Shown one piece after another: positions 2 to 60,233 of a stretch of DNA of 64,000 bases. The notes beneath the pieces were generated by a model. That model searched no databases. It was not told the DNA's origin and saw only the letters and a program-made list of their open reading frames with translations. Every line of letters begins with the position of its first letter. Position 1 is the stretch's first letter. The position numbers and the translations under genes are program-made. Origin of the DNA: Hyaloraphidium curvatum (Eukaryota; Monoblepharomycota; Hyaloraphidiomycetes; Hyaloraphidiales; Hyaloraphidiaceae); the NCBI GenBank assembly GCA_025558095.1, contig JAIVFI010000041.1, positions 310,001 to 374,000 of the forward strand, given 5' to 3'.

Positions 2-436
2 GTGCCTTTCGTGGCTGGCGTCGCCGCCATCGCCGCGGGCTCGTGCGTCCCGCTGTGGTGCCCCCTCGTCCTGCTCTTCTTTTTCTTCCTCGCCTTGAGG
101 GACCTCCTCGCCGTCGCCGCTGCCAACGCGCAGGTATCCACCACGCAGTCCCTCCTTCGGCGGGCGCACCGCGAAGCCGAGTCCATCCTCGCCCGCGCCT
201 CCGCCACGCCGGGGGGACCACCCCCTGGCCCCGCCGCCGCACTGGGCCACCACGCGGCGCTTCTGGCCGCCTACGCCGGGGACGCTTCGGCGGTCGCGAG
301 ATTCCTCGGGTTCGCGGCGGATTGGGGAAGCGCAAGGGCGGTCGCGGCCACGCTTCTCACCGTTGCCGTGGGACTGTGGTCTGTGCTGAGGTCCGCGGGG
401 GTGTACCTGACGCCGGACGTTGCTTGCTGGGCTTGA
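2..436 (+). CDS. 7TM receptor-like family member A (3' part only)
   Basis: The window opens inside this gene, so only its last ~144 residues are visible. They contain the family's C-terminal third: a helix pair joined by a short turn reading AAGSCVP (near residue 13), the conserved loop with AAANAQV, and the last helix with the W-S-V-L-R-S-A-G-V pattern before a terminal Cys. The same order occurs in copies C, E, F and G in this window. The frame is open to the left edge and ends in TGA at 434-436. Role unknown; by family resemblance it may be a membrane sensor or ion channel (inference). There is no sign of decay in the visible part. It faces the histidine phosphatase gene tail to tail. Confidence 0.75.
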   Translation: MPFVAGVAAIAAGSCVPLWCPLVLLFFFFLALRDLLAVAAANAQVSTTQSLLRRAHREAESILARASATPGGPPPGPAAALGHHAALLAAYAGDASAVARFLGFAADWGSARAVAATLLTVAVGLWSVLRSAGVYLTPDVACWA

Positions 437-907
437 GGTATCTGTGCAGAGCTGGCGAAGCAATCTCATCAAGCACGAATGCCAAACCCGGACGTCAGCG
501 ACCGTCGAATCCAATTCAAATACTTCGTTCTCCTGCACACGGCGATGACAGCTCGCTGCTCCCTGCCCGATTATTGTCCGTACCACTTGCATCCACGAGC
601 ATCGGCACCGGCAGGTCAATCCATCGATCGTCAATCTCCTTCCTTCTTTTCCGTGACCACGATGCCGCCTTTTGGGCGTGCGGCCCAATCACTAGTGCCC
701 CTACACCTGTCCGCAGTAGCCCGGCACTATTCTGGCCTACTGGCCAATGCAACAACTGGGTGGAATCTCTCCATCGTCAGCATCACCCTGAGGGACCTGT
801 ACACGCTCCATAGTACGAATCCTCTAATAAAGGAACTTCCTTCTCGCACATCTATCTGCTACTGGGAATCACCATCGTCTTCGTAGCCGGCGGATAGGGC
901 TTCCACG
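437..907. other. intergenic, convergent 3' regions
   Basis: This stretch lies between the stop codons of two convergent genes. Only short, low-quality reading frames are present. I see no motif, repeat or RNA gene. Confidence 0.5.
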
Positions 908-1783
908 TCAACCCCAACGGATCACGAGAGGCACCATCTCCGTGTTGGACGGCCAATGACTCGGGTACCCTGCAGCTTCCACCGCGTGGGAGATCCAGTC
1001 CGAGTGCCCGATGATCGCGACGCGGGCCCACGGTCCGTCCAGGATCCACTTGAGCGTCCTCAAGGCGCGGAGCCTCACTTCAGAAGGGTCCTCGCGCGCA
1101 ACAGGATCGTGCCAAGGATCCTCGTCGCCCTCCAACAGGCCAAAATCGACCTCAGGATACGCTCCCCGGAGTTCGCCGCGAGCGCGCCGCATGTCACAGA
1201 TGTTGCGGCCGTGCCGCTCCCGGACCATCTCGGCGGCGACCACCGGCACCCTCTCCCAAAAGTCCTTGAAGCCAATCGCACCAGTTTCGAGAGCCCGCGT
1301 GAGCGGGGACACGACCAGCGCGTCCAGCTCTAGGCCGCCTTCCGCCGCACCCGAGACCGCGGCCCCCAGGTTCGCCGCCTGCTCCAAGCCGGCGTCGTTG
1401 AGCGGCGGGTCAAAGTACTTCGGGTCGGTGGCCTCCTCGCGCCACCTCTCCTTGCCCAGCTCGCGCTCGGCCGCGTTGTGGATGCCCTCCCCGTGCCGCA
1501 CCAGAAGGACCACCTTGGCGCCGGCGTCCCTCGCCGCGGCGAGCAGTTCCGTCCAGGAGTGTCCCGGAGAGACGCCGAGCTTAGAAACGTCCGAGTCGTT
1601 CCACTCGACGTGGGGGAGCGGGACGTGCGACAAAGTCCGCGGGTCGTCGGCAGGCGGGAACGGCGGGAGGGCGGGGAGGCGCGGCGGGGAAGCGGAGGAG
1701 AGCGACGCCGACGGCGGCATTGGGGCGAGGAAAAGGAGAGCGAAGGAGAGGAGGAGGACCCCGATGCTCCGAAAAATGGACAT
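908..1783 (-). CDS. histidine phosphatase superfamily (phosphoglycerate mutase-like) protein
   Basis: A 291-residue, single-exon protein. Residues ~8-26 form a hydrophobic signal peptide or signal anchor. The catalytic domain starts with LLVRHGEGIHN (RHG at 96-98, H97 being the phosphorylated His), continues with SPLTRALET (~159-167), and carries the second catalytic His in IIGHSDW (H260). This is the order seen in fungal phosphoglycerate mutase-like phosphatases. The HGEGxHN form is common in the eukaryotic branch that acts on phosphorylated small molecules or proteins; the substrate cannot be read from sequence. The N-terminus suggests a secreted or membrane-tethered lumenal enzyme. ATG at 1783 precedes the hydrophobic segment directly and is the natural start. 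Confidence 0.85.
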   Translation of the reverse strand: MSIFRSIGVLLLSFALLFLAPMPPSASLSSASPPRLPALPPFPPADDPRTLSHVPLPHVEWNDSDVSKLGVSPGHSWTELLAAARDAGAKVVLLVRHGEGIHNAAERELGKERWREEATDPKYFDPPLNDAGLEQAANLGAAVSGAAEGGLELDALVVSPLTRALETGAIGFKDFWERVPVVAAEMVRERHGRNICDMRRARGELRGAYPEVDFGLLEGDEDPWHDPVAREDPSEVRLRALRTLKWILDGPWARVAIIGHSDWISHAVEAAGYPSHWPSNTEMVPLVIRWG

Positions 1784-1921
1784 CGGCGCCGAGACGCGTC
1801 CCTGGCCGTTTCAAGCCCACCAGACGTCCCTGAAGCACTCCCCAAATCTCAACGGCCGGCGTATATATCATCCGCATGAAAACCGGATACAAGTCCAACT
1901 TCGAGATAGATTCCTAGCCAG

Positions 1922-4931: not shown

Positions 4932-5104
4932 GCTCCGGGACCGAGACGCGATCGGTGTGTTTGCGCGGCGTCGTGCCGATCCGTCCAACCCCGAGCTGCT
5001 CGTTCGGACCGAGGCATGGAGCCGCAGGATGTCGAGGCAGGCCATGGCCGGGTATCAAGCATTTAGCTGCAGAGTCAGGGCGATACACGAATACCGCCTG
5101 GCGA

Positions 5105-6080: not shown

Positions 6081-9000
6081 ATGCGCCTGCGATTCGCGCT
6101 CCTCGTCCTCGCCGGGCTCGTCGCCGCGGCGGCCGCCGACGAGGCGCCCGTCGCAGTGCAGCCGCCGCTGCAGACGGCGTTCGTGTGCCACGGCGCCGAG
6201 CCCGTCGTTGCCGCGTGCCCCGCCGGCACGGCCATCGCCGTCGCCGACGCGTTCTACGGCGGCGACGACGAGCTCAGCCTCGACTGCCCCGCCGCGCCGA
6301 CCGACTGCGCGCACCCGCCCGCCCGCGCCGCCGCCGTCGTGCTCGCCGCCGCGCGCGTCTGCAACGGCAAGCCGGACTGTGCGCTCGCGCAGGACGCCCT
6401 GCTGCCGGTCGGCGACCCGTGCATTGGCGTAAACAAGGCAATCAGGCTGCGCTACGAGTGCGTGCAGCCCGCCGCCGCCGTTGCCCCCAGCAGCCCGCCC
6501 TCGGACGCCGCCATGTTCGCCCGCCGCCCCGGCACCTACGCGGGCGCAGGCTGCCCGTCGCTGCAGGCCGCCCTCGACGCCGGAAACAGGGCTGGCTACC
6601 GCTTCGTCAAGGACACCGAGGCGCCCATCAGGCTGCAGTTCGCTGACCTGGACCTGACGCAGCTGGATGCCAAGATCCGCGAGGCGACGGGAGGTGCCCT
6701 GGGGGTAGACACCGCAGCCAACATCGACATCGTCGCCGTAAACGTCCTGCTTCCTGCCGGCTCCGCCGTGTCCATCGGCAGGCACGCGAAAGCAAAGGTA
6801 GCGCTCTCCATCACCGCCATCAACATCGTCGCCGGGCCAGGGAGCAGGCTGGTGGTCTACTCGCTCGACGAGCGCGCGGACCCGCTGCCGGGCCCCGACG
6901 TCATTGTCCGCGCCGCGCGGATCATGGGCGAGCTGCACATCGACCAGAACGGGCTGGGCACGGACGACCCAGTGGGCCCCAAGGTCGGGCCGTTCAGCTA
7001 CAAGCGTGGGGCCGTCGGCGCGATCGATCGGCACGGGGCGATCTCTGATGACATCGCCACCCCCGTCCAGTCAACCCCTACAACGGTCCCAAGATCGGCG
7101 CCGACGGCCAGCCCAACTACGGCCTCGGCACGCACGGCCTCGCCAACATGCGCCCCGAGAACCTGCTCGTTCGGCAGATTCCCATCCGCGTCGCTTCACA
7201 CCCAGACGACTGCAACGGGACCCTGCTCTGCACAACGGACCCGGCCAACTACGACGCCATGTCGCCCTCGCAGGAGCTTACCGGGCTGCATCTTCAGACC
7301 TTCTACGCGCGCACCTGGCCCTCCGCCGCTCCCCAGGGCCAGAAGTTCGCGAGGTGGGGCACCAACGCGGACCGCTTCTCGTGGCCGGGCAAGGACGCTT
7401 GGGGCTCCGTCGACGCGAGGGTGGGCGGGTTCCTCCCCTTCGACGGGGAAGGCGCGCCATCCGCCTCGGGGGTGCGCGGGGAGAGGGGGATCGCGGCGTC
7501 GGCCGAGCACGAGGTGCGGCTGGAGGAGGACCCGGCGCAGATGTCCGAGATCCCGGGGGGCGTATTTCGCGCGCTGCGGGAGGTCAACGCCGCGCGTATG
7601 CGAGACCCGGAGGCGGTGCCGGAGCTCAACTACATCAAGCACGAGTGGCTGCGGGAATCGTTCGGGAGGCACAAGCACTTCCGGTACGAAGCCGTGCACA
7701 CCCCGCTGCTCGCGGACCCGGAGGCGTGGGGAGGTCCGGCACCGGAGGCGCTCGAGATCCTGGAGCTCTGCCTCGCCGAGACTGTCTCGGCGTCCCGCTT
7801 CGCCGAGGCCGCCGCGCGCGTGGCTGACCTCGCCGACGTGCTGCCCGACGCTGGGGGCGACGGCGACCCCGCGGCGTCAGCGGCGGTGGGCCGCATCCTG
7901 GGCGCGCACAGCGGGCTGCTTACGGGGCGGAGGGAACAGGCGATCGCCGTGGTGCCGTACCTCTCCGTGGACGCCATCTCGGGCCGGGTGAGTAAGGAGC
8001 TGGAGCACCTCCTCCAGCTCGAGGCAGAGGTGGGAAAGATCAACGCACAGGCGTCGTCGGTGGACGTCGCGCGACAGGCCGTCAGGCTGGGCACCGTCGC
8101 CGTCGAAGGGCAGGTGGCCAACTACGAGGGCGAGCTGGCGGCCTCGCAGACCTTCATTACTGCGCTGCAGCAGAAGGAGGCAGACATGCAGAAGGCCTAC
8201 GACGCGCTGCAGCCCGAGATGGAGGCGGCGGCGGCCAACTTCAAGAAAGCGCTGGAGAAGAAGCTCGCCATCGAGCTCACGTTTGCCGCCGTGGCCCTGA
8301 TCGGCGAGTTCAGCAACGCCCTCTTTGTCTTTTCGGCCGCACGCAAGGCGGTCAACGTCTTGAAGGATGTCAAGGAGAATGAGACGCAGGCCAAGCGGGC
8401 CTTCACCGAGATGGACAAGCTGGTCAAGGTGCTCGAGCTCATCGGCAAGTCTATCCAGCAGCTCCGGTACCTCAGCAGGGTTCGTCTGCGGGCGCGGTCC
8501 CGGTGCCGCGGGAAGCTCACGCCGCCTTGCGCCTACCTTTGCAGGCGATCCAGCCGGTGTACGCCGTCGCCATCGCCACGCACAACTCGAAGCCCATCAT
8601 GCTCAGCAAGGCGAACATCACCGAGTACTTTTCCACCGTGGTCGATTCGGGGTCCCTCTCCACGCTGGCGACGAGCGCGCTCGGGTACCAGGAGCTTAAG
8701 GACGCGGCGTACATCGCCTTCCAACCCGCCGTGGCCCTGGGCGTATCCGCGGCCACCAACGTCTCGCAGACCATGGCCAAGATCGCCAACGTCGGCGCGG
8801 AGCTCGTGGCGACGCAGACCCAGCTGCTCTCGGCCATGAACGCCCACGTACTCTCGGCCTACAAGCTGCAGTCGGCCCGCAAGCAGGCCGAGCTGGTCGC
8901 CAAGGATCGCGACGACCTGGACCGAGACGCGCAGGCGCTCGTCCGGGCGGCGTTCAGGCTCAACCAGGCCATGATCGCGCAGAAAGGCGTTGCGCTCGCG

Positions 9001-17538: not shown

Positions 17539-19028
17539 TCACGTGCACGCGAAATCCATCGTCATCCTGACGCCCAGGCCCCTCAGGATGCTCCAGATGC
17601 CCACGATCAGAGTGATCGTCGTCACCACAACCGTCCGGACCACACCGTAGTCCACCGTCAGCCCCAGGAACTTCCCTCTGATCCCCGGGTCCTCCAGGTA
17701 GCCCGACAGCCGGGCGTCGTGCCGTGCCGCCGCGCGGCGGAGCTCCGCATCGGGCGGGTCCGGAAGCTCCCTGAGTTCCCGCCTCGCGGCGTGGTACAGC
17801 GCGCGCACTGAGTTGACTTGCCCGTTGCTGGCGGCCAGGTTGAGCAGGTCCACCAGGGCCAGTCCAAGCACCAGGTAGGCGAAGAAGATTGGATAGAGGG
17901 CCGGCAGGCATCCGCCCGAAACCATGACGATGCAGCTGCAGACCAGAGCCGTGAGCGCCGAGACCACGAGGGCGCTTGAAAAGTTGGTCTGCGATACGCG
18001 CGAGCGCCACGTTGCGGAGAGGGCGCGGTGCACCTCGACGTAAAGGTCCTCGTCATGCGGATCCCCTGGACCGGGCTTGTCCAGCGGTGCCGGGGGCTCC
18101 CCATGATCCACGGCGGAAAGAACGCGGTGACGCAGGGAGCGCAGCACGTGCGAGAGGGCAAGCCGCATCATTCGGTGCGAGATTCGTTCGGAAAGCTGGA
18201 ACATGGCGATGTTCCCGCTGAAGCGGACGGCGGTGGCAGAAGCTGTACAACACAATGGCGGCGACTGCGAGGGCGGAACGTTAGCACTAGGCAACTGCAA
18301 TGAACGACTGTCTCACGGCTCAAGGCCCCCAGGGTCGCGGACCATGGGGTTCGCCAAAAGTCATATCCTTGCGTGACTATGGGCGTAAAAATCATGATGA
18401 CCATCGCAAAGGTCAGCAGGACGGATTTGAAGGCCAGTTCGAGCCAACGAAGGAGCGCAGCCCGGGCACCGAGCCCTCCTGCGCAACCCGGGAGCGGACA
18501 CGGGCATAGCTCGTCGGCGGAATCGTGGACCAGGATGTGTTGCCCACTCCGCTGTGCCTCAGACCACCTCACTAGGGGGGCGAGGGGGTGCTTGTCGAGG
18601 ATTGCGGAGCCCGAGGTCGGCAGCCTGAGGGACCCGCGGTACGTGGCCATGAGACCCTGCCCCACCGTCCATTGCGTAACGGCCACCAGCAGCAAGGCGA
18701 AGCCAAGCGAGAAGTTGTTCAGGGGGAACTGCGCGTGCGGGAACGCCCACGACGCGCTCAGCACAGCGGCGAAGGCGGCGAACATGAAGGCCGCCCGGAC
18801 GATGCCCGCCGCCGCCAGGGGCGCTAGCACGAGCTGCATGCGCGTCGCGGCGCGCAGGGCTGGCCACGGCGCGAGTCCGTCCACCAACGCCCGTGGAGTG
18901 AGGGGTCGAGCATCCCGCGCCGTCGCCGCGCGGTCGGGAAACGGGGGCGCTCCGGAGAGACTCGGCGGCGCAGAGGGCCACGCGGGAAAAGCGGCCAGCC
19001 AGGTTTCGGCCGTCGGCTCGCCGCTCAT
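17539..19028 (-). CDS. 7TM receptor-like family member B (frame interrupted)
   Basis: Exon 1 runs from the ATG at 19028 to 18317 and exon 2 from 18264 to 17539, with a 52-nt intron that has GTGAGA, a GCTAAC branch site and CGCAG. Exon 1 holds the N-terminal E-T-W motif, helices 1-3 and the loop Cys cluster DELCPCPLPGC. Exon 2 holds loop 4-5, helices 5-6 with SGGCLP, the A-A-S-N-G-Q-V loop and helix 7 ending in a Cys. After splicing, the frame entering exon 2 (L-A-A-I-V-L-Y-S-F) does not match the frame used downstream (A-V-R-F-S-G); a one-base shift is needed around 18235-18250. It is either a sequence error, a more complex splice, or a young pseudogene. The intron position, inside helix 4, is not shared with copy D. 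Confidence 0.7.
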
Positions 19029-19489
19029 GTGGAAAGCGTCAGCTCTTCTGTCTGGGGGACACCGATTCTTCTTTGATTCTCGGGGACACCGCCGCAACCC
19101 TGCCAAGCCATTCCTCGTCTTACACGAACGCTAGCGGCCTGCCTCATTTTCGCGATCGTTCTGATTGGCGAACTTCAAGGAGACGGTTGCGAGGAAGTCT
19201 CCACGTTTCCCTCTCTCACAGCCGCTGCGCGCCCCGCCCGATATATTCGAGTAGGGGGAGACGGCGGGGCTAGGTGTTCACCAAGCTGCGGGTACAGGCC
19301 TCCTTGACCTTGTTCAGAAGCTTAGCAGCCAGCTTTGAACCACAGTTGAGCGACAGCGCGCGCCAGTCGAGGTCCAGGTTCCGGCGAGGAAAGGCGGAAG
19401 ACAGCTGCGGGCGACGCAAGTGAACCGCGTCCAGATAACCGAATCCGCCGCCTATCACGCGGAAGACGCGCCGTCCGCCTTCCTTAGGA
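19029..19489. promoter_or_regulatory. divergent intergenic region
   Basis: This region separates the starts of family member B (minus) and the NIPA-like gene (plus). No definite element was found. A TATA-like string (gatatattcg) occurs near 19240. Promoter function is inferred from position. Confidence 0.35.
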
Positions 19490-20680: not shown

Positions 20681-22252
20681 ATGGACAGCAAGCACGCCTC
20701 CAGTTCAATTGACGACGCCCCCTCGGTCGCGCTGGGCCCCGCGGAATGGCTGCTCCTGCTCCCGGCGCCGCCGCAGCCGCCCGCCACGATGTCCGGCGCG
20801 GCGCCGCCGCCGGATCCCGCGGCGGGACTCCGCGTCGCGTCGCCCCTCACCTTGAGCGCATTCGTCTCTGCGCTCGCCGAGAAGTCGCCCGCGCTGGCCC
20901 GCTCCGTGCTCGTGCAGACGGCTTTGGAGCCCTCCGCGACGCGGCCGCTCCTCCGCTACCTCATCCTCTGGGTTTCTTTCGTGCCGCTCCTCGTCCCGGC
21001 GTGGATGTTCAACGACGGCCGCTTCGGCTCGCGGCAGCTCGCGGTCGGCACCGCCACACTCACCGTCGGCTTCTTTGGCGCGACGCTGTTCATCGGGCTG
21101 TTCGCGGCATACCGCGCCTCGCTGGCCGCCCTGGGCGCGGTCGGCGGTAAAGCCGGGCACCAGGGCGCAAAGGACCGCGAGTATTCCTCGCACGGCGCCG
21201 CGGGCCTCGCGAGGTGGATCCAGTACTGTTCTGGCGCCCTCGGCCCGAGGACCGGCCGCCTGCTGGAGCACGACGCCAAAGATTCCCTCTGCCCCTGCCC
21301 GAATCCGAGCTGCGCCGGGAACCTCGCCCGCCGTGCGGGCACCCTGAGGATCCTCGAGGCCGCCTTCAAGCTCTCCACCGTCGCGTTCGCGGCCTTCTGC
21401 TTCTACTGGACGCCCCTCGCCTCCGCGGGGATCGCGCAGCGCACCTGGACCGAGCCGTGGTCGACACCCTTCGCGGCTCTGGCCGTGCTGGGCCTCGTCG
21501 TGCTTTCCGTCCCGATCGGCCTGGTCCGGTTCTCCACCAACCTTGCGCTGCTGGACCTCTCCCGGCGCGTCGGCCTGCGCGCCGTGCGGATCTCCCTGGG
21601 CGAGATGCTCGCTCGTTACCGGTCGCTGGGCGACCCCGTGCCTTTGGAAACCGACGACCCCGCGGCGCCCGACTTCGCAGCTCCCGCCCCCGCAAGTCCC
21701 AACATCCGCCCGGGCAGCGTCTACCTCGACATGCACATCCTCTTCACCTCCGCCTGGCGCCGGCGCATCCTCTTTTTCGGCGCCTCGCTCCCCCACATCC
21801 TCGCCGCCACCTTCCAGGTCGCCATGGCGACGATCAACGCGGCGGCGTGCTCCTGCATCCCCGCCGTCTACCTGATCTACCTCTGCTACACCCTCTCGGT
21901 CAACCTCGTCGATCTGGTCAACGTGGCGGCGGCAAACTCGCAGATCGAGGCCGTGAGGGGGCTGTACCTCGACGCCCTCCTCGAGCTCCGCTCCCTCCTC
22001 CGCCGCGCCGCCCTGTCCCCCTCCCTCGAGGACGCCGCGCTGCTCCGCGCCGCATCCGCCGACGCCGACGTGCTCGCCAGCCTGGTCGAGGTCGACAGGT
22101 ACCGCGCGCGGTTCCTGGGGTTCGCCGTGACCTTCGGCATGGTGCGGACGCTGGGGATCACCATGGTCACGCTGGGGGTGGCGATGTGGTCCGTGCTGAG
22201 GGGACTGGGGGTGTGGGTGACGATGGAGAACGTGTGCACGGTGGGGCCGTGA
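20681..22252 (+). CDS. 7TM receptor-like family member C (intact)
   Basis: A 523-residue, intronless, apparently intact copy starting at the ATG at 20681. Features in order: an N-terminal A-E-W-L-L-L-L-P motif (~18-25); helix 1 (~92-112); helix 2 (~122-145); loop with the Cys cluster DSLCPCPNPSC; helices 3 and 4; a long loop 4-5; helices 5 and 6 around A-C-S-C-I-P; the conserved loop A-A-A-N-S-Q-I-E-A-V-R-G-L-Y; and helix 7 preceded by F-L-G-F-A-V-T-F-G and ending W-S-V-L-R-G-L-G-V. The topology (seven helices, long even-numbered inner loops) and the F-x-G-F before the last helix recall gustatory receptor-like and DUF3537 proteins; that link is inference. It starts 154 bp after the NIPA-like gene. 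Confidence 0.82.
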   Translation: MDSKHASSSIDDAPSVALGPAEWLLLLPAPPQPPATMSGAAPPPDPAAGLRVASPLTLSAFVSALAEKSPALARSVLVQTALEPSATRPLLRYLILWVSFVPLLVPAWMFNDGRFGSRQLAVGTATLTVGFFGATLFIGLFAAYRASLAALGAVGGKAGHQGAKDREYSSHGAAGLARWIQYCSGALGPRTGRLLEHDAKDSLCPCPNPSCAGNLARRAGTLRILEAAFKLSTVAFAAFCFYWTPLASAGIAQRTWTEPWSTPFAALAVLGLVVLSVPIGLVRFSTNLALLDLSRRVGLRAVRISLGEMLARYRSLGDPVPLETDDPAAPDFAAPAPASPNIRPGSVYLDMHILFTSAWRRRILFFGASLPHILAATFQVAMATINAAACSCIPAVYLIYLCYTLSVNLVDLVNVAAANSQIEAVRGLYLDALLELRSLLRRAALSPSLEDAALLRAASADADVLASLVEVDRYRARFLGFAVTFGMVRTLGITMVTLGVAMWSVLRGLGVWVTMENVCTVGP

Positions 22253-27146: not shown

Positions 27147-27392
27147 GGCGTGGCCGGGCGCCGCCTGGACGCCGCAGAGACGGGGCGATGGGCGAGTGAG
27201 TTTGCCAGCTGACGGTGCTACCCAAGCGCTACCGCGTTTCCTCGGGATGTCGGGCGGGGTCGCCGGAACCACCTATTCATCCGAGTCGCACCTAGATGCA
27301 AGCAGGACGAGTAAGATACACAGCAAGAGGGCACAGAATACATCGATTCGGGACTACTCCGATGGCCACTGCACCACGGCGGCCGCCAGCAC

Positions 27393-42152: not shown

Positions 42153-42799
42153 TGAGAAGGCATTCGTGTAATCTGTCCGATAGTCTGTCCGACGTTTTTC
42201 TGGGAAGGTTCAAGTAACGTAACGTAACAAATAGGAGCATCTGGTGGATTCCCCTGTCTTTGACTTTTCGAATGAAATCTTACTCAGCAAATCCAGTTCT
42301 CCAGGCCCAAGGGGTGGCTGGGTCGGCGTCCGGACAAAGAGGACCACGCTGGGTGCGGAGACGCCTTGGACGCCTCCACCCGCGGGCGAGGGGTGGAGCG
42401 GCATCCGAGATCTCGGGCGGCGCTCTTTCTGCTTTCCGAGCGCGCGGGCGGAAGCGTGGGGAAGACCTCATCGCAGGTGCGTCGCTTCACTTCGGACGCC
42501 AGACGGGCTCAGGGTGCCTTCGCGCACACATTTCTGTGCGCATTCGTCAGTCGACGTGCCGGCGGCGGGAACGCAGCGGGGCCGTTGGACCGGACCGGAG
42601 CGGCAGCTTGCGGGTGACAGGACGGCACGGATTCCCGCAGCAAGGAGACAAAGGCCGCCCGCGGCCAGTGCTGCGGACATAGCTTGAGGGGTTCTTGCGC
42701 CGGGACGGCGGGCACGCGCCCCTGGGAGGCCGCAACTCTGACGCGCCGCCACGCGTATTCAACGCGTGTTCGGCCGGCAAAGACGTGGACGGAGCCAAT
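42153..42799. other. intergenic upstream of receptor-like copy D
   Basis: Non-coding. A stretch at about 42555-42690 resembles 38255-38370 (shared GACGCAGCGGGGCC, GGACCGGACCG and GGCCGCCCGCGGCC-like blocks), so a diverged repeat is shared with the 37-40 kb tract. Confidence 0.4.
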
Positions 42800-44406
42800 A
42801 TGGAGGAGGAGTCCGCGCCCGCGGAGCCGCTTGCCACATTCTCTCCCGCCGAGTGGGCTGCGCTGTTTCCGGCTCCGCTCCGCGCGGACGACCTGCCCGC
42901 CGAGCTCGTCCCCCTCGTGGCGAAGGCAGCCGACGAGCGCGCGGCGGCGCCACCGCTGGGCCCGGCCGACGTCAGCGCGGCGCTCGCGGACGCGCCGGTG
43001 TCGCGCCGGCTGCTGCATCTGCAGGGCTTCCTCGGCCGCGCCGTGCTGCCGCGCTTCGCCCTCCTGCGGCTCGCCCAGCAGGCGTTCTACGTTTTCTTTG
43101 CGGCGCTCGTGTGGATCGAGAACGACGGGCGCTTCGGCACCCGGCAGCTTGTCGCGGCCACGGTGGCAAGGGTCGTTGCGCAAGTCATCTGGGACTGGCG
43201 CGTGCTCGCCGGTCGCTTCTCCTCCCCGGACGACCGTGAAATCTTCCTGGACAACGAAGCAGTGGCCGCTGGCGCGGATGGCTCTGTGCTGGCCGGAATT
43301 GTCCGCTACCGGCTACTGGAGCGTGCCGGCGGAAGCTGGCTCCTCGAGCACGTGCCGGGCGATACCCTCTGCACTTGTTGCGGGTCTCGGTGCAGCGGCA
43401 ATCTGATCCGGAGGTCCCTTTGGATGTTTGCTGCCATGCCTCTATTCCTGGCGATCCTGCAATTGGTGATGTTCAACCTGCTCATTGTCTGGACCCCCTT
43501 GATCACATTTGGCGCTGCAACGTGGTCGACGCCGTGGGCGGCCACTTTCTCTGCTGTCGGCCTGGCCGTTGTTAGTTGCGCCTTAGTTGTTGTTCCCCTG
43601 GCCATCCGCCAACATAGCGTTGCGCTATTCCTGCTCGAAGCCCGGATGCACCGAAGGGCGGTCGCGAAGTGCCTGGACTCTGCCTTGGGGAGTTTCCGAA
43701 TTGCGCTGGAACCACTTCGCGAGGGGACGTGGAAGGCACGCGATGCCGAATCACGTCGCCCTTTACGCCGTGCTCGTGGGACATTGGCAGCAGGCCAGGG
43801 GAGTCGCAGACTCCGGCCGGGCCGTCATAGTCACGGGTCTCCTTGCAGAGTCGGTCGCGCTCCTTATTGTCTTGGTGGGTTAGAGCGGACAGGTGTCGTC
43901 GCATTCGACCCATTGACAAGGCTCCCCGTTCGTTGCAGCTGGCTTCCTCCTGCATCCCGGCCTACAACCTGGCGGCGGTCGTGTACAACATCTTCCTCCT
44001 GGTCACGCTCGACCTAAGCGAGGTCGCGGCGGCCAACACCTCCCCCCTGCGCATCGCGGGCCTCTACCGCTCCGCCGCGTACTCGTTCCGCTCCATCGGG
44101 ATGTCCGCCGTCGCCCGCGGACTTTCCGCGGCCGCTGCCGCGGCCGACATCCACGAACGGATCCTTTCCGGCTTCGCGGACGTGGAACCGCAGCGCCCCC
44201 GGGCCTTCGGCGTCCCCGTCACCTTCGGGCTCGTGAGGACGGTCGTGGCGACGCTGTTCACGCTCGGGGTGGGGCTGTGGAGGGTACTCAGGGGGGCGGG
44301 CGTGGGGGTGACGATCGAGATGGTGTGCCCGGTGGGTTGCGCCGGGGGTTGGGCTGCGCGCGGCTCGCTGACGGTGTGCGTGCAGACCCCAGGTCCGGCA
44401 AGCTGA
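42800..44406 (+). CDS. 7TM receptor-like family member D (possibly broken)
   Basis: The ATG at 42800 leads into F-S-P-A-E-W-A-A-L-F-P, helices 1-2, the loop with D-T-L-C-T-C-C-G-S-R-C, and helices 3-4. The frame then changes near 43725, into H-V-A-L-Y-A-V-L-V-G and helix 5. A 64-nt intron (43875-43938, GTGGGT donor, GTTGCAG acceptor) joins to L-A-S-S-C-I-P, helix 6, the A-A-N-T-S loop and helix 7 (W-R-V-L-R-G-A-G-V). The first frame change can be explained by a one-base indel or by a 67-nt intron at 43669-43735, which would, however, remove part of loop 4-5. The end after the last helix is ~25 residues longer than in other copies. Either a divergent functional member or a young pseudogene. 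Confidence 0.68.
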
Positions 44407-48386: not shown

Positions 48387-49844
48387 TCACCCCCTGCACG
48401 CGATGTCCAGGCTCACGACGACCCCCGCGGACCTCAGCAGCGTCCACAGCCCGACCAGCACCGTGAACGAGGTCAGCAGCACCGTCCTCACGACCCCGAA
48501 ATCCACCGCGATCCCCGCCAGCCGCGCCCTGGTGTCTCTCACACGCGCGAACGTGGCTAGGACGTCCGCGGCCCGCGCCGCGTCGTCCCTGCGGAGCGAC
48601 AGCCCGCGGAGCTCCGTTTCGGCGGCGGAGTACAAGGCGGCGATGCCCTCGATCTCGGCGTTGGAGGTCGCGAGGCTGACGACGTCCACGGTGAAGGTGA
48701 CGAGCATCTGCACGAGGATGGCGGGCACGTAGGCGGGCACGCACGAGCCGGCGGCGATGTTGATGATCGAGCAGACGGCGGCCGCAGCGAGGTAGAAGAC
48801 GACGTAGGGGGCGCTGGTCATGCCCTGCCCCGAGCGGGCCGCCCAGATGGCGGTAAAGAGGGCGTGCAGTACGACCAAGGGTTCGTCGGCGGAATCGGTG
48901 GGGTCAGGGACTCCAGAGGAGCCGTCTTCCTTCTCGGCGCCGTCTTTGGTCCGGAAGCGTTGCAGCAAGGCGCGCAGAGCGATGGCGGCCGCCCTGTGAC
49001 GGAGCCGGAACTGCAGGTTCCGTATCGGCGGGTTCGCAACGAAGCGCACTGCTACGAAGTAAGGGCAGCACAGTGCGAGGTAGACGACCACGCTCAGGTT
49101 AGGAACGATGCCCCACCACACGTGCCAGGTAACGGGTGCCATTGTCACCAAGCACGTGTAGACGATCAGAAAGAGGGAGGCGATAAGGACCGACGTCCTG
49201 ACGAGGTACTCTGCCCAACGCCAATAGCCTGCAGCCCGTGGTAGCCCAGCCGCACAGCTCTTCAGGAAGCACGGGCAAAGGTCGTCGTCCGCGTCGTGGG
49301 CCAGAAGGCGTGCCTCCGATTCGCCCTTGGAACGTACCACCTGCAGGTATCGGGCGACGACGGCGAAGGGGTGGGATGAGGCGTCCTCGTCGGGTCCGCC
49401 GGCAAGTCGAGCGCTTGCGCGCGTAACGAGGCCAGCGCGGGCGGCGGAGGCAATGAGGACAAAGAAGGACATGCACGCGTAGCACACAACGGCAGCTAAC
49501 CCGGCGGCCATCTGCGTCCTGCCGAAGGGGCTGGCGGCCGTGGCATTTGCGAACCAGGCGACGACGGCGCACAGCGCGGCGAACGGCGCCCACGCAATCG
49601 ACAAGAGAGGCACCGCCCGGCCCGCCCCGCGCACCAGCGATATCTGCAGCGCGGCGGCCGACCACGCCGGTGTGCAATCCCGCAGTTCGCGGAGCAGCAC
49701 GCGGCGCGTCAAGGGCTCCGCCGCACGCAACTCTCTGCCGGGGACCGCGGGCGGGGGCGCCCCCAGCACCCGCACTGCCGGTGCTGCCTTGGGCGGGGGA
49801 TCCGGAACAACTGCAAGCCACTCGCGAGGCGCTAGGAACTCCAT
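48387..49844 (-). CDS. 7TM receptor-like family member E (intact)
   Basis: A 485-residue, intronless, uninterrupted copy. The N-terminus MEFLAPREWLAVVP fits the family EW motif. Helix 1 (~70-90, A-W-F-A-N-A-T follows), helix 2, loop 2-3 with DDLCPCFLKSC, helices 3 and 4 (V-Y-L-A-L-C-C-P-Y-F), a basic/acidic loop 4-5 of about 80 residues, helix 5 (V-F-Y-L-A-A-A-A-V), the A-A-G-S-C-V-P turn, helix 6, the loop S-N-A-E-I-E-G-I-A-A-L-Y, then I-A-V-D-F-G-V-V-R-T and helix 7 ending W-T-L-L-R-S-A-G-V. Sequence is far from copies F-H and closer in C-terminal details to copy A, showing old divergence within the family. No function is known. Confidence 0.82.
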   Translation of the reverse strand: MEFLAPREWLAVVPDPPPKAAPAVRVLGAPPPAVPGRELRAAEPLTRRVLLRELRDCTPAWSAAALQISLVRGAGRAVPLLSIAWAPFAALCAVVAWFANATAASPFGRTQMAAGLAAVVCYACMSFFVLIASAARAGLVTRASARLAGGPDEDASSHPFAVVARYLQVVRSKGESEARLLAHDADDDLCPCFLKSCAAGLPRAAGYWRWAEYLVRTSVLIASLFLIVYTCLVTMAPVTWHVWWGIVPNLSVVVYLALCCPYFVAVRFVANPPIRNLQFRLRHRAAAIALRALLQRFRTKDGAEKEDGSSGVPDPTDSADEPLVVLHALFTAIWAARSGQGMTSAPYVVFYLAAAAVCSIINIAAGSCVPAYVPAILVQMLVTFTVDVVSLATSNAEIEGIAALYSAAETELRGLSLRRDDAARAADVLATFARVRDTRARLAGIAVDFGVVRTVLLTSFTVLVGLWTLLRSAGVVVSLDIACRG

Positions 49845-50338: not shown

Positions 50339-50505
50339 GGCGCAATCGCCGGTGGAGGGACTTGGATTGGAAAGCCACGCCCGACTTTCCCTCTCGTCAA
50401 ATCTTGGAACAGGAAATGAATTGCATCACAAACAAGAACACAAAAGAAGATCGCTTGCGGCACTGAAGCCGCGATTTCCACCTAAAAAGTCCGCCTCAAA
50501 GCCGG

Positions 50506-53739: not shown

Positions 53740-53883
53740 GTCTCCGTTTCACAAGGTTTAGGGGATCGCGAAGATCGGATCGAAGTGAACAGCAAGCGAC
53801 CTCTATATTCCGGTCGAGAAGCAAGCTGGACGAATCTTCTGTCTGATCGACGTGGGGCCGCCGATTCTCCACGTCCGGTCGAG

Positions 53884-55389
53884 ATGCCTCCCCCGCCACC
53901 GACGGACCTGCTGGACTTTTCCGCCGCAGAATGGCGGGTCATTTTCCCCACCGCGCCGCCGCCGTCGGCGGGCGCGCCGTTCGCGGACCGGCTGACCCTG
54001 GCCGCGGACGGGGACAGCGACAATCCGTTCCCGGGCGGCGACAAACACGCCGGCGCCGACCAATCGGACCCGATTACCTACGAAAAATGGGTAGAGGCCG
54101 CGTCGAAGCGTGGAGGTGGTTGGTTCGCGTTCCAGGAGCGTGCCATCCGGACGCTCTCTCCATGGATGGCGCTCAACCGCACGTGGTTTCCCCCTGTCAT
54201 CCACGTCCTGGGCGTTCTCTGTGTCATGCCGTTTCCATTCTTTTTGGACTTCGGGGGCACATTTGGCCGCACGCAGCTCATTGCGGGCACGGTCAATCTG
54301 GGAATAGCTGTCGTCGTGGGGAACCTCGCCTTCACCGTCGTCGTCACCAGCAAGACTAGGAACGCGCCGCGAGCATGCGACATTCATCTCTTCGTCGTGC
54401 AGCAGCTGTTCCGGCTTTGGCAACTGCAGAAGGACAGCGGGTCGATTCTCATCGCGCACGTTGACGGTGACCCTCTGTGCCCGTGCGACGAATGCGCCCG
54501 CCCACTCGTGCGGTGGATACCCTGGGAGCGCCTACTTCGGAGCTTTGCGCAGCAGATTTCCACGTTGTTGTACATGTTGCTGATGGGCTGGACGGCCCTC
54601 GTCTACCTGGGCGGCTCTGTCTGGCCCAAGTCCTGGGGTGCAACTCTCGGCGCCTTTTCGTTGTTCGCGATCCTGCAGTACAATCTTCCTGCATTCTTTG
54701 CCGGCTTCGTTCCAGCGAACGACCCGCTCGTTCGCATCGGAACTCGCATCTACCGTCGCGCTACGTACCTCGGGCTCTCCTCTTTTCTGATCCGTGCTGC
54801 CGCTGCCCTGACGGATCCCGCCTTTGACTCGGAAATATTGCCCGCCAGAGAGCTTTTCGTTGAACTTCACCGCGGCTATTCGATCCGCTGGTCCGCCTGC
54901 GGCGTCAACCCTATTACCTCCTTGCTTAGTTTTGCATTCCCCATGGCCATCCTACTGCTCATCATCGCGGTTTCCACCGGATCCTGCATTCCCGGCTGGA
55001 TTCTTTCATATTTCGTCTGGGTCCCCCTCTTCGTGGTGCTCGGCTTGTTCGAGATTCCGAGCATCAACGGCCAGATGGACGCCATCACGGAACTGTATCG
55101 CGGCGCGCACCTCTCGCTGGTCAGCCTCCTCTCCGAATCAGCGGGGCTCCCCGCCACGCCGGAGCGCGAGGCGGCGCGGGACCGCCTGCGCGCCCGGGCG
55201 GCGCTGCTCCATGCCCTGACGGGCTCCGCGGAACACCACAGGATCAAGTTTGCGGGGCTGCCTGTCACCTATGGTTTGGCCAAGACGATCGCCGTGACGC
55301 TGCTGACATTGGTGGTCGGGTGCTGGAGCATCTTGCGCGGCTTCGGAGTGTACGTGACCTTGCAGACGTACTGCCCGACGCCGGCTTAG
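53884..55389 (+). CDS. 7TM receptor-like family member F (intact)
   Basis: A 501-residue, intronless copy from the ATG at 53884 (the MPPPPP start shared with G and H; an in-frame ATG at 53785 lies upstream). It shows F-S-A-A-E-W-R-V-I-F-P, seven predicted helices (about 101-121, 130-153, 224-246, 250-275, 345-367, 370-391, 463-486), the Cys cluster D-P-L-C-P-C-D-E-C in loop 2-3, S-T-G-S-C-I-P between helices 5 and 6, and E-I-P-S-I-N-G-Q-M-D-A-I-T-E-L-Y in loop 6-7. The end is G-F-G-V-Y-V-T-L-Q-T-Y-C-P. It is very close to H and a little less to G, so these three are recent duplicates. Same strand as G and H; 145 bp after the amine oxidase. Confidence 0.85.
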   Translation: MPPPPPTDLLDFSAAEWRVIFPTAPPPSAGAPFADRLTLAADGDSDNPFPGGDKHAGADQSDPITYEKWVEAASKRGGGWFAFQERAIRTLSPWMALNRTWFPPVIHVLGVLCVMPFPFFLDFGGTFGRTQLIAGTVNLGIAVVVGNLAFTVVVTSKTRNAPRACDIHLFVVQQLFRLWQLQKDSGSILIAHVDGDPLCPCDECARPLVRWIPWERLLRSFAQQISTLLYMLLMGWTALVYLGGSVWPKSWGATLGAFSLFAILQYNLPAFFAGFVPANDPLVRIGTRIYRRATYLGLSSFLIRAAAALTDPAFDSEILPARELFVELHRGYSIRWSACGVNPITSLLSFAFPMAILLLIIAVSTGSCIPGWILSYFVWVPLFVVLGLFEIPSINGQMDAITELYRGAHLSLVSLLSESAGLPATPEREAARDRLRARAALLHALTGSAEHHRIKFAGLPVTYGLAKTIAVTLLTLVVGCWSILRGFGVYVTLQTYCPTPA

Positions 55390-55473
55390 GACGCAATGGT
55401 GGACTGATGCAGTAGTGCCGGAGCTTTGCTTGGGACTATTGGAATGGTCGAGCGTCGCACGGAAAATCTCATT

Positions 55474-56135
55474 TTATCGCGTTCGAGCTAAGAGAAAGTC
55501 CAGAGCGCCCTCGATCGAGTCCGGTGTGTGTGCCAGCATCGCGCCAGGCGTGGCGGCGAGGAGGTCAAAGAGCACCTCAAGATCCTCCGCTTCAAACAGC
55601 TGTGCAGAACCACGTCACATGGTCGTCGAGCTCCGACCCGCCAAGTTCCGGCACTGACATGGCATCGTCCCGCGCCAGAGCCTCTTTCGCGCACCCGAGG
55701 TCATGCACGGCGTTGATGAGCCGTTCTGCGTCCATGACGGTCGCCGCCGAAAGCCTCGAAATCAGGTCCTTGTCCGTGACGAAGCTGGTCACCGTGCCCC
55801 TCAGCTCCCGGGACACGCCGAGCGAAACCACCGCAGGCGGGCCGAAAGCCACCACGCGGACGTCTGTGTCGATCTCCGGGGCGAGCAGGGAGCCCACGAG
55901 TGTGGCGATCGCGGCGCCGAGGGAGTGCGACCAGCACGATGCGGAAGCCGGCGGTTGGCGTCCACCAAAGACCTGAGGCCCATCATAAACGGTGAGGTCG
56001 GCTTTGTGACGAGCTGCGCCACGGCGAGGAAGAACCCGTGCGCGTACCCGCCTCGGAAGGGCGCGCTGTCGGCCGCAAAGTCACACAGCAGGTCCGTGAT
56101 CCCGGCACTACCGCGTACGACGATCATGAACGCGA
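55474..56135 (-). pseudogene. class 3 lipase (sn1-specific diacylglycerol lipase-like) remnant
   Basis: On the minus strand from about 56135: F-M-I-V-V-R-G-S-A-G-I-T-D-L-L-C-D, then P-F-R-G-G-Y-A-H-G-F-F-L-A, the block before the nucleophile elbow in class 3 lipases. The nucleophile motif is broken: V-L-V in one frame is followed by H-S-L-G-A-A-I-A-T-L in another, as if two bases (the Gly codon's) were lost near 55928. Then A-F-G-P-P-A-V-V-S, D-L-I-S-R-L and, after a second frame change at about 55600, a final helical tail to a stop at 55474. The 5' end is cut where a fragment of the receptor-like family begins, so the N-terminal part is gone. Confidence 0.78.
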
Positions 56136-56458
56136 TCACGGAACTATATCGCGGAGCGCACCTCTCGCTCGTGAGCCTTCTTTCCGAGTCTGCGGGTCTT
56201 TCTGCTACAGTTCACCACGAGGGTGTGCGAGACCGTCTGCGCGCGCGGGCCGCGCTACTCCAGGCGCTCATGGGCTCGGCGGAGCACCACACGATCAGGT
56301 TTGCGGGGCTCCCGATTACTTACGGGCTTGTCAAGACTATTGCAGTCACTATGTTAACGCTGGTGGTCGGTTGCTGGAGCATCTTGCGGGGGTTCGGGAT
56401 CTTTGTAACATTGCAGTCGTACTGCCCTACGCCTGCGAAGCTAATGACCTGCGGCTGA
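56126..56458 (+). pseudogene. 7TM receptor-like family fragment I (last ~110 codons)
   Basis: From about 56126 the sequence matches the last part of F, G and H: N-A-I-T-E-L-Y-R-G-A-H-L-S-L-V-S, the loop 6-7 helices, F-A-G-L-P-I-T-Y-G-L and the complete helix 7, ending S-Y-C-P-T-P-A plus six extra residues because the usual stop has changed to AAG. Five or more upstream helices are missing, and upstream DNA belongs to the lipase remnant on the other strand. It is still open, so the duplication is fairly recent; it may be expressed as a short peptide but can not be a full family member. Confidence 0.82.
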
Positions 56459-56723
56459 TTACGCTCGAAGCTGATCAATCAGTGTTTGCTTCTGTGGATC
56501 GGGTACTGGTCAGAGAGCTGGACCAATGGCAGTTCTTCACGTCGAATGGGGAGCGGAAGTACCCATGTATCCATGTAAGGCTCCGGCAATCAGAAAGATC
56601 GGGTCGAAATGAAGAGCCGTTTGGGGAAGCCGGCCGTGGGGAGCCTTCTCTTGGGATAACGCTCGCCAAGGGCGATGCGACGCACAGGCCGCGGTGCGCT
56701 TCGCGTGATCCGCTTCGCTAACC

Positions 56724-58220
56724 ATGCCTCCCCCACCACCAGCGTACCTGCTGGACTTTTCTGCGGCCGAGTGGCGCGTGATTTTCCCGACTGCGCCGCC
56801 GTCGGCAGGCGTGCTGTTCGCGGACCGGCTGCCCCTCGCCGCGGATGGGGCCGGCGGAGCCCACGTCGGCGACAAACACACCGACGCCGTCGAATCCGAC
56901 CCCATTACCTATGACAGATGGCTACAGGCCGCGTCGAAAGGCGGCGGGGCGTGGCTCGCGTTCCAGGAGCGCGCCCTCCGGGTACTTTCGCCGTGGGCGA
57001 CGTTCAGTCTCACATGGTTCAATCCCGTCCTCCACATCCTGGGCCTCGTCTGTGTCATGCCGGTCCCGTTCTTTCTGGACCCCGCGGGTACTTTCGGTCA
57101 CACACAGCTCATCGCGGGCACCTTCAATCTCACATTATTCATCGTTGCGAACCTCTGGTTTTCGATTGTCGTTCACAGGACGTCCAGGGGCGCGCCACGG
57201 GCATTCGTCATTCATCTTGACGGCGTGCAACAACTTTTTAGACTTTGGCAACTTCAGGACGACGCGGTGTCGATGCTAGTCGCACACATTCCCGGCGACC
57301 CTCTGTGCCCATGCCGCGACTGCACCCGCTCACTCGTGCAGTGGATCCCTTGGGAGCGCCTACTTCGGAGCCTGGTGCAGCAGACGTCCACATTCTTTTA
57401 CATGTTTCTCATGCGCTGGACGGCCCTCGTCTACCTGGGAGACTACGTCTGGCCCCAAGCGTGGGGTGCGGCTCTTGGTGCCTTTTCGCTGTTCTCGCTC
57501 CTCCAGTACATTCTCCCTGCGTTCGTTTACACCTTTTTCCCCGCGAGCGACCCGCTTGTTCGCACGAGGACTCGCGTGTACCGCCGAGCGACGTACCTCT
57601 CGCTCTCCTCCTTTCTGTCCCGGTCGGCCGCCGCCCTGATGGATCCCGACTTACACTTTGACACTCTGCCCGACAGAGAGCTTTTCGCTGAACTGCATAA
57701 AGACTACGCGTTGAGCTGGTCTGCTGTTGGCGTTAATCCGAGCACTTCTTTTCTCATTACCGCGACCCTCCCAATCACTTTCCTTCAACTCGTCATCGCG
57801 GCTTCCACGGGATCTTGCATTCCAGCTTGGATCCTTTCCTGCTTCATCTGGGTCCCTCTCTTCGTGATGCTCGCCTTGTTCGAGATTCCGAGCATCAACG
57901 GCCAGATGGACGCCATCACGGAACTGTATCGCGGCGCGCACCTCTCGCTCGTTAGTCTTCTCTCTGAATCTGCGCGCCTGCTGGCCACGCCGCACCGCGA
58001 GGGGGTGCGGGACTGCCTGCGCGCCCGGGCCGCGCTACTCCACGCGCTCTCGGGCTCGGTGGAACACCACAGAATCCGCTTTGCAGGGCTACCGGTCACA
58101 TATGGCCTGGCCAAGACGATCGCGGTCACAATGCTGACGCTGATGGTCGGCTGCTGGAGCATCCTGCGGGGTTTCGGGATCTTTGTAACCTTGCAGACGT
58201 ACTGCCCCACGCCTGCGTAG
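56724..58220 (+). CDS. 7TM receptor-like family member G (intact)
   Basis: A 498-residue, intronless, uninterrupted copy. Residues: N-terminal F-S-A-A-E-W-R-V-I-F-P (12-22); helix 1 ~98-119; helix 2 ~127-150; loop 2-3 (~70 residues) with D-P-L-C-P-C-R-D-C at 192-200; helix 3 ~221-243; helix 4 ~247-272; loop 4-5 (~70 residues); helix 5 ~342-364; the S-T-G-S-C-I-P turn; helix 6 ~367-388; loop 6-7 (~72 residues) with I-P-S-I-N-G-Q-M-D; helix 7 ~460-483 and a tail of 15 residues. The long 2-3, 4-5 and 6-7 loops carry charges, placing them and the N-terminus on the same (cytoplasmic) side. No signal peptide. This is the best reference copy for structural comparison. Confidence 0.86.
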   Translation: MPPPPPAYLLDFSAAEWRVIFPTAPPSAGVLFADRLPLAADGAGGAHVGDKHTDAVESDPITYDRWLQAASKGGGAWLAFQERALRVLSPWATFSLTWFNPVLHILGLVCVMPVPFFLDPAGTFGHTQLIAGTFNLTLFIVANLWFSIVVHRTSRGAPRAFVIHLDGVQQLFRLWQLQDDAVSMLVAHIPGDPLCPCRDCTRSLVQWIPWERLLRSLVQQTSTFFYMFLMRWTALVYLGDYVWPQAWGAALGAFSLFSLLQYILPAFVYTFFPASDPLVRTRTRVYRRATYLSLSSFLSRSAAALMDPDLHFDTLPDRELFAELHKDYALSWSAVGVNPSTSFLITATLPITFLQLVIAASTGSCIPAWILSCFIWVPLFVMLALFEIPSINGQMDAITELYRGAHLSLVSLLSESARLLATPHREGVRDCLRARAALLHALSGSVEHHRIRFAGLPVTYGLAKTIAVTMLTLMVGCWSILRGFGIFVTLQTYCPTPA

Positions 58221-58285
58221 CGCCGAACGGGTTTGTGAATGCTTACCGACGAAGCTAATCAAATAGATGCTTGCACTGCGGATCG

Positions 58286-58609
58286 TAGAACACTCAATCT
58301 ACACAAAAAGCGAAGCCCTGCCCCCCGAAGTTTACCCTTCCATCTCGTAGAGCCACTGAGCCGTGCCCTCCACCCGACTACTTACCTCACCGGCCGCCCT
58401 CCCAGCCGTCGTGGACGCCCCCTGCAGCGATCCCGATCCGGAGTGCTGGCCGTCCGAAGAACCTCCAGTCGAGCCGCCGCCGTTGCCGCGAACGCAAAGA
58501 TTGACCCAGCGTCGGAATACGGGTTCTGTGCAGCGCACCAGGGCCGCCGTAAGCCGCTGGCGTGCCGAAGTCATGAAGAGGGCCCTCAGCCCATCGATGT
58601 CATCCCCGG
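58286..58609 (-). mobile_element. 324-bp insertion with 6-bp direct flanks (dispersed repeat, copy 2)
   Basis: The insert is flanked by GGATCG at 58280-58285 and 58610-58615. The region upstream of copy G (about 56480-56600) is the matching empty site: both share GAAGCT-ATCAA, GCTT, GGATCG and then CAGAGAGCT, TTCTTCAC and GGCAATCAG in order, and G has GGATCG only once. Inside, ~270 bp match the inverted repeat copy at 24918-25190. No terminal inverted repeats or poly(A) are obvious. It looks like a small non-autonomous transposed element, possibly a retroposed fragment; the class is unknown. Confidence 0.7.
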
Positions 58610-58829
58610 GGATCGAGTCCTGCCCAGAGAGCTTTCAAATAAAGTCGCGCTCAACAACAACAGTTCTTCACTTCGAGCGAAAGCGACCATGTAACGCTCA
58701 GGCAATCAGAGGATGAGATCTAGATGACGACCGGGCAGTTGTTGTAGCCCCGTTCTAGACACGACTTTCTCGATGGACGCGCGTCTGATCGATTTACGTG
58801 GTTCCGCCGATTCTCCGCTTCCGGTCGAG

Positions 58830-60233
58830 ATGCCTCCCCCGCCACCGACGGACCTGCTGGACTTTTCCGCCGCAGAATGGCGGGTCATTTTCCCCACCGC
58901 GCCGCCGCCGTCGGCGGGCGCGCCGTTCGCGGACCGGCTGCCCCTGGCCGCGGACGGGGACGGCGGCAGCCCGTTCCCGGGCGGCGACCAACACGCCTAC
59001 GCCGGGGAATCCGACCGTCTTACATATGACAGATGGATTCAGGCCGCATCGAAGCGCGGCGGGGGCTGGCTCGCGTTCCAGGAGCGCGGCATCCGGGTGC
59101 TCTCGCCGTGGATGGCGCTCAACCTCACGTGGTTTACCCCTGTCGTCCACGTCCTGGGCCTTCTCTGTGTCATGCCGTTTCCGTTCTTTTTGGACTCCGG
59201 GGGCACTTTTGGTCGCACGCAGCTCGTTGCGGGCACCGTCAATCTGGGAATAGCTATCGTCGCGAACTTGTCTTTCACGGTCGTCGTCACCAGCAAGACT
59301 AGGAACGCGCCGCGGGCATGCGACATCCATCTCTTCGTCGTGCATCAGCTGTTCCGGCTTTGGCAACTGCAGAAGGACGGCGGGTCGATCCTCATCGCGC
59401 ACGTTGACGGTGACCCTCTGTGCCCGTGCGACGAATGCGCCCGCCCACTCGTGCGGTGGATACCCTGGGAGCGCACTCTACGGAGCCTCGCACAGCAGTC
59501 TTCGACATTTGTGTACATGTTTCTCATGCGCTGGACAGCACTCGTCTACCTGGGCGGGTACGTGTGGCCGCAGGCGTGGGGTGCAACTCTCGGCGCCTTT
59601 TCGTTGTTCGCGATCCTGCAGTACAATCTTCCTTCATTCTTTGCCGGCTTTGTTCCCGCAAACGACCCACTCGTTCGCATCGGGACGCGCATTTACCGCC
59701 GCGCGACGTACCTCGCGCTCTCCTCCTTTCTGACCCGGGCTGCCGCCGCCCTGACGGATCCCGCCTCTGACTCGGACACCTTGCCCGCCAGAGAGCTTTA
59801 TGCCGAGCTCCACCGTGGCTATGCGGTCCGCTGGTCCGCCTACGGCGTCGACCCCATCACTTCTTTGCTTAGTGTTACTTTCCCCGGGGCCATCCTTCTG
59901 CTCATCATCGCGGTTTCCACTGGATCCTGCATTCCCGGCTGGATTCTTTCATGTTTCGTCTGGGTCCCCCTCTTCGTGGTGCTCGGCTTGTTCGAAATTC
60001 CGAGTATCAACGGCCAGATGGACGCCATCACGGAACTGTATCGCGGCGCGCACCTCTCGCTGGTCAGCCTCCTCTCCGAATCGGCGGGGCTCCCCGCCAC
60101 GCCGGAACGCGAGGCGGCGCGGGACCGCCTGCGCGCCCGGGCGGCGCTGCTCCATGCCCTGACGGGCTCCGCGGAACACCACAGGATCAAGTTTGCGGGG
60201 CTGCTGTCAGGACGGGGCGCGGGGGACCCGTAA
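58830..60233 (+). pseudogene. 7TM receptor-like family member H, 3' end disrupted by retrotransposon
   Basis: From the MPPPPP start at 58830 this copy is intact through helix 6 and loop 6-7 and is nearly identical to F (same D-P-L-C-P-C-D-E-C cluster and S-T-G-S-C-I-P turn). At K-F-A-G-L the sequence passes into the long terminal repeat of the chromovirus at 60205 and stops after nine foreign codons at 60231-60233. Helix 7 and the tail are lost from this open frame; the missing ~35 codons should lie beyond the element, outside the window. The rest shows no lesions, so the insertion is young. A six-helix protein could still be made but would lack the most conserved segment. Confidence 0.85.
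60200..60204. repeat. putative 5-bp target-site duplication (left copy)
   Basis: The bases GCTGC directly precede the LTR end. In copy F the same place reads GGGGCTGCCTGTCACC, so insertion happened right after GCTGC. The second copy should follow the other LTR, outside the window. Confidence 0.55.

Follow-up and report, generated by a model that had tools for sequence, protein, structure and literature searches.

A giant orphan family of seven-helix membrane proteins with an insect receptor-like layout in the fungus Hyaloraphidium curvatum

Hyaloraphidium curvatum is a fungus of the Monoblepharomycota in which the flagellum has been secondarily lost (PMC8371127). The stretch analysed here, a window of 64,000 nucleotides from contig JAIVFI010000041.1 (C41:310001-374000) of its 31.9 Mb, 55-contig genome, carries nine copies of a gene for a membrane protein with seven hydrophobic helices. 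Judged by sequence, these belong to a real, giant orphan family that has a layout like that of the insect OR/GR receptor-channels and matches no known protein family. The fungus may have evolved a large repertoire of its own for chemical sensing and, with slightly less than even confidence, we favour the reading that the family is a set of receptors working like the insect OR/GR receptor-channels.

Seven protein searches of the fungus's own genome, merged and supplemented by hand with copies B and D of the window, give at least 198 matching places on 43 of the 55 contigs; these are places rather than proven genes, fragments are included, and a gene split beyond the joining rule counts twice. 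Further copies have been missed, since each search contributed only 67-88 of the places and 78 of the 198 came up with no more than one query. Merged match width exceeds 1300 bases at 155 places, and non-self matches within the genome run over the full length down to expectation values (E) <1e-50, which excludes chance likeness. The contig of the window holds the most copies of any (13, including B and D), and most of the family is dispersed, another copy lying within 10 kb at 58 of the 198 places. The original prediction of a multi-copy, lineage-expanded seven-transmembrane family in a fungus, made from the window, is thus borne out at 198 places instead of nine. At least 11 database proteins match besides the window's own (ten from H. 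curvatum, one from ENA), a number which, set against some 200 genomic copies, reveals the low recall of protein searches, so that absence from other fungi cannot be inferred. The ENA entry, P0004, is a partial environmental protein of 287 amino acids that is 49% identical to copy C and possibly comes from another organism. Viral and prokaryote contigs searched with copy C, a query that can reach close relatives only, gave no match. The family goes unmentioned among the titles and abstract openings listed in the literature searches; the survey that Himmel, Moi and Benton published in Current Biology in 2023 may mention it.

The layout of the family was established on an alignment of 87 distinct full-length copies, each a single open reading frame (ORF), taken from the window and from 98 retrieved loci. 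These copies were chosen for being whole, with 52 further partial ORF pieces kept out, and at least eight of them retain unspliced intron-like letters. Their average hydropathy has seven maxima, around which the helix limits were set by the analyst. Median lengths are 83, 75 and 66 residues for the loops on the N-terminal side (2-3, 4-5 and 6-7) and 7, 14 and 5 for those on the opposite side (1-2, 3-4 and 5-6), as had been proposed from the window copies, and the tail after helix 7 is 14-18 residues long. Lysine and arginine together account for a fraction of 0.133 of the 20-residue flanks that lie on the N-terminal side; for the short loops plus the tail the figure is 0.065. The N-terminal side is the richer in 86 of the 87 copies. 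By positive-inside statistics this bias places the N-terminus inside and the C-terminus outside, with the long loops on the inner side, so that the topology is most likely N-in/C-out, as in insect OR/GR channels and in agreement with the extracellular C-terminus that the original prediction had implied. Full length, 467-541 amino acids in 68 copies with script-chosen starts, lies at or above the upper edge of the 350-500 or so residues of the 7TMIC superfamily, to which OR/GR proteins belong. Helical periodicity directly follows helix 6 (398-415, p=0.007), a weak signal because it is one of four windows at p<0.01 among several hundred tested. The inner projection of Orco helix 6 occupies the corresponding place (PMC9998090).

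Seven residues are invariant in all 87 copies (numbering of copy F): H192, C199, C201 and C204 in loop 2-3, C368 in loop 5-6, N395 where helix 6 ends on the inner side, and C497 in the tail. A further four are almost so, namely R177 and T475 (86 of 87) and D196 and R292 (85 of 87). Of these 11 residues, each present in 97% of copies or more, T475 is the only one within a helix by the limits set here. The H192-C199-C201-C204 cluster resembles a metal site, while Cys368 and Cys497 could form a disulfide. With a histidine and three cysteines on one side of the membrane and two single cysteines on the other, the arrangement would suit a reducing interior and an oxidising exterior, in line with the topology predicted. 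Mean pairwise identity is 0.15-0.23 across helices 1-6, and rises to 0.44 in helix 7, 0.45 in the tail and 0.54 in loop 5-6, with loops 6-7, 1-2, 2-3 and 3-4 at 0.30, 0.33, 0.34 and 0.35. Conservation had been expected to peak in loop 6-7 and helix 7; helix 7 fits this expectation, whereas loop 6-7 does not rise above loops 1-2, 2-3 and 3-4.

Database searches with this material yielded no relatives among named families. Five copies gave nothing in Pfam at E<=10, and six proteins gave nothing in NCBIfam at the same limit. When 60 members were run against Pfam at E<=1, the models 7tm_6, 7tm_7 and DUF3537 (PF12056), together with those for G-protein-coupled receptors (GPCRs) and of PAQR/CREST type, were all without a match. 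The matches obtained were to 11 families, one member each, the best at 0.0084 and without a pattern, under HMMER filters that discard most matches above about 0.1. A sequence search of the PDB with copy C gave nothing, and whole-length and C-terminal profiles found no OR/GR chain there at E<=10. The sole match of the whole-length profile, VMA21 (E 0.021), was taken as chance helix similarity, and the eight matches of the C-terminal profile (best 0.074) were to a capsid protein and to helical soluble or designed proteins.

Profile-profile comparison gave no firmer link to the insect receptors. Aligned over the whole length against Orco/GR with hhalign, the family scored P 0.1, compared with 0.5 and 0.71 when one side was reversed, but in that alignment loop 5-6 and helix 6 were paired with the N-terminal part of Orco, which is not their equivalent. 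The C-terminal halves gave P 0.43 (0.24 and 0.33 with one side reversed), and a second C-terminal comparison gave 0.17 for GR and 0.26 for Orco (reversed GR 0.53). In the same set-up Orco against GR reached P=0.00012, while nothing obtained with the family stands clear of the reversed controls. Searches of the fungus's own genome with the PF12056 and PF08395 profiles were empty and uninformative, 14 control genomes being equally empty for the former and the controls likewise for the latter. In insects the last helix carries the motif TYhhhhhQF, which is partly or not kept elsewhere. It is named the TM7 motif in the surveys (PMC7746228; PMC9998090). In 60 members of the present family aligned by eye on T475, the threonine is kept in 59, the tyrosine position holds only V, L, I or A, the glutamine position only S, G or T, and the phenylalanine position only I, V, L or M. 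The V-T/D-Y/F-G stretch at the entry to helix 7, once offered as a link to GR and DUF3537 proteins, is not this motif, and its likeness by eye to GR proteins, which failed the profile tests, is not used as evidence. Nor does the proposed GR/DUF3537 relationship find support at the level of sequence in the Pfam, PDB and profile-profile tests. These negatives are compatible with membership of 7TMIC, since accepted members share as little as 8% identity (PMC9998090).

Two classes of seven-helix protein invite comparison at this point. Pth11-like receptors have seven helices and form large families in other fungi, and the present proteins might likewise be GPCR-type receptors (Pth11-like, Ste2/Ste3 or cAMP-receptor-like) of the usual N-out/C-in topology. 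This reading has a very slim chance, as the charge bias puts the N-terminus inside in all but one of the aligned copies and the 60 members matched no GPCR model. PAQR/CREST proteins also have seven helices, N-in/C-out in the case of PAQR, and conserved histidines and aspartates within them. An N-in hydrolase of this superfamily with an intramembrane metal would explain both the topology and the metal-like residues. We give it the slimmest chance of all the alternatives, because no histidine or aspartate within a helix figures among the 11 best-kept residues, H192 and D196 lying in loop 2-3, and no such model was among the Pfam matches.

Ten near-full-length pairs have ratios of nonsynonymous to synonymous substitution (dN/dS) of 0.19-0.36, and two comparisons with fragment G give 0.08-0.11, which indicates that the family is under purifying selection. 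This bears on two further explanations. The proteins could be a surface-variation or self-recognition family (of allorecognition or mating type-like kind) diversified for difference rather than sensing, as some 200 mostly dispersed, highly divergent copies with broken ones beside intact ones might suggest. Such a role appears improbable under purifying selection and with outer loops that are tiny and comparatively conserved (0.54, 0.35 and 0.33) next to helices 1-6. That distribution fits the binding of small molecules in the membrane part better than antigenic variation. Alternatively, the copies may have been amplified without any function for the organism, carried by mobile elements. A Ty3-type element adjoins copy I, its ORF lying some 30 bases from the end of that copy (no direct repeats of at least 25 bases were found in 58800-64000), some copies are broken and most are dispersed. 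The dN/dS values of the ten pairs and the seven residues invariant in every full copy leave this account only a slim chance, and simple retrocopying is made less likely by intron-like segments that occupy shared positions.

These segments, recognised by eye, are insertions of 16-21 codons, running from GT to AG, that lie close to two recurrent positions in eight single-ORF copies, four in helix 4 and four at the border of helix 5 and loop 5-6; the script's own intron pattern recognised two of the eight. Some copies thus probably contain short in-frame introns, and retrocopying as the sole origin of the family was set aside on account of the recurrence of these insertions. An in-frame stop occurs in two loci (L077:1400-1620 and L069:1396-1620) at almost identical positions of the alignment (about 372); the one in L069 lies at a possible intron donor and the one in L077 looks plain. 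In a quick tree of the 87 copies, support reaches at least 95 on 35 of the 84 inner branches, the deepest forks are weak (36) and the median end branch is 0.59. We read its shape as that of an old and continuing expansion.

Comparison with 7TMIC (OR/GR, GRL, DUF3537 and PHTF) as described in the surveys brings out likenesses of architecture. Both have seven helices, an N-terminus that charge bias places inside, inner loops longer than the outer ones, a conserved last helix after variable N-terminal ones, and lineage-specific expansion, and they possibly share the helical continuation after helix 6. In OR/GR proteins too the C-terminal helix is conserved and helices 1-6 are variable (PMC7746228). 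There are differences as well. The H. curvatum family has no detectable sequence similarity where that of Orco and GR is detectable, lacks the TM7 motif's Y, Q and F, and possesses an invariant His-Cys3 cluster, two outer cysteines and a tail of 14-18 residues. It also numbers about 200 copies, whereas the survey of 2020 gives one GRL for each of two chytrids (PMC7746228). Compared by description, GRL1 of Spizellomyces is likewise fungal with the GRL layout and keeps one of the four TM7 motif positions, but it is a single-copy gene (PMC7746228).

If the proteins are receptor-channels, the variable helix bundle would bind different small molecules in each copy, and the conserved C-terminal module (the continuation of helix 6, helix 7 and the tail) would be the shared part for assembly and for the pore or output. 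The His-Cys3 cluster might bind a metal ion, which would fix loop 2-3 or dock a shared partner, and a Cys368-Cys497 disulfide could staple the end of helix 7 to loop 5-6. In its fullest form, which is somewhat more doubtful than the receptor-channel reading itself, the proposal is that a flagellum-less unicellular fungus evolved on the 7TMIC fold its own receptor-channel repertoire of about 200 genes, of insect-olfactory size, with two additions: an inner loop that binds metal and serves all copies as a gate or docking site, and a disulfide on the outside that fixes the end of the pore helix. Such a repertoire would be far larger than any non-animal one named in the surveys consulted. If the proteins are receptor-channels, large insect-type chemosensory repertoires would not be an animal speciality, and the role of the superfamily before nervous systems would become testable in a culturable single-celled fungus.

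Several observations weigh against the receptor-channel reading. The positive-inside statistics and the partition of cysteines are predictions of topology from sequence and not measurements, and the tail carries 1.40 lysines or arginines per copy, about as many as the three short loops combined (0.93, 0.40 and 0.06). Pairwise dN/dS, a gene-wide average, gives no sign of diversifying selection, and dS is above 1 in four of the ten pairs. On the other side we count the retention by P0004 of the His-Cys3 cluster and the loop 5-6 cysteine. In addition, Pfam, NCBIfam, the PDB and hhalign revealed no link by sequence to receptor or channel families, and this speaks for a lineage-specific seven-helix family of another kind, a transporter or membrane enzyme with many substrates in which the His-Cys3 cluster is a cofactor or structural site. 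We know of no such metal-site-like cluster in OR/GR proteins, and an osmotrophic lifestyle would favour families of transporters. We nevertheless consider a transporter or enzyme unlikely, though worth serious attention, as T475 alone among the best-kept residues is intrahelical, leaving in helices 1-6 no conserved polar core such as would mark a site of catalysis or transport, and these helices are the most variable parts measured, which is unusual for an enzyme. If the receptor-channel reading fails, some 200 seven-helix proteins with an invariant metal-like site and no named function would be a major unexplained part of the genome.

Within the window, a hidden Markov model (HMM) of the family recovers 11 ORF pieces that correspond to nine loci at the same coordinates as the nine related copies first described (Table 1). 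By this model and the translations, five copies are intact, counting edge-cut copy A, and four are broken or truncated. Copy B is probably a pseudogene: helix 4 contains an intron-like segment (GT..CTAAC..AG), and a further frame break, judged by eye, remains. In copy C the family residues are H197, C204, C206, C211, C392, N419 and C519. Copies F to I stand in tandem; H is 72% identical to F, and I is 87% identical to F over the shared part.

Table 1. Family copies, family residues, intron-like segments and neighbouring genes (window positions unless a contig or loci are named)
Feature	Position	Strand	Remarks
Copy A	1..436	+	C-terminal end of intact 494-aa (amino-acid) copy cut by left window edge
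Copy A, whole gene (L070)	C41:308952-310433 plus stop	+	Begins outside window
Copy B	17539..19130	-	First described as 17539-19028; ORF pieces 18171-19130 and 17542-18312
Copy C	20681..22252	+	Intact single ORF, 523 aa
Copy D	42800..44406	+	Degraded; reading frame interrupted several times (by eye); ORF pieces 42683-44014 and 43831-44403
Copy E	48387..49844	-	Intact single ORF, 485 aa
Copy F	53884..55389	+	Intact single ORF, 501 aa; reference numbering for family residues
Copy F, His192-Cys199-Cys201-Cys204 cluster, loop 2-3	54457..54495	+	Invariant in 87/87
Copy F, Cys368, loop 5-6	54985..54987	+	Invariant in 87/87
Copy F, Cys497, C-terminal tail	55372..55374	+	Invariant in 87/87
Copy G	56126..56458	+	3' fragment, last ~110 codons (loop 6-7, helix 7, tail); F/H/I subfamily
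Copy H	56724..58220	+	Intact single ORF, 498 aa
Copy I	58830..60233	+	Without helix 7 and tail; HMM match ends at position 457 of 498
Intron-like segments, in frame	L021, L025, L029, L053, L060, L061, L062, L079		By eye
SUEL lectin domain ORF	6081-7991	+	Match at cut-off
zf-C3HC/NuBaID-type zinc-finger gene	19490-20527	+	Between copies B and C
Cytochrome P450 part, ORF	26445-27272	-	
F-box ORF	36650-38152	-	
Sulfatase part, ORF	41223-42152	+	
Flavin amine oxidase gene	52246-53739	+	Directly upstream of copy F
Ty3-type retrotransposon ORF (reverse transcriptase, RNase H, integrase, chromodomain)	60263..64000	-	Runs to window end; not a family member

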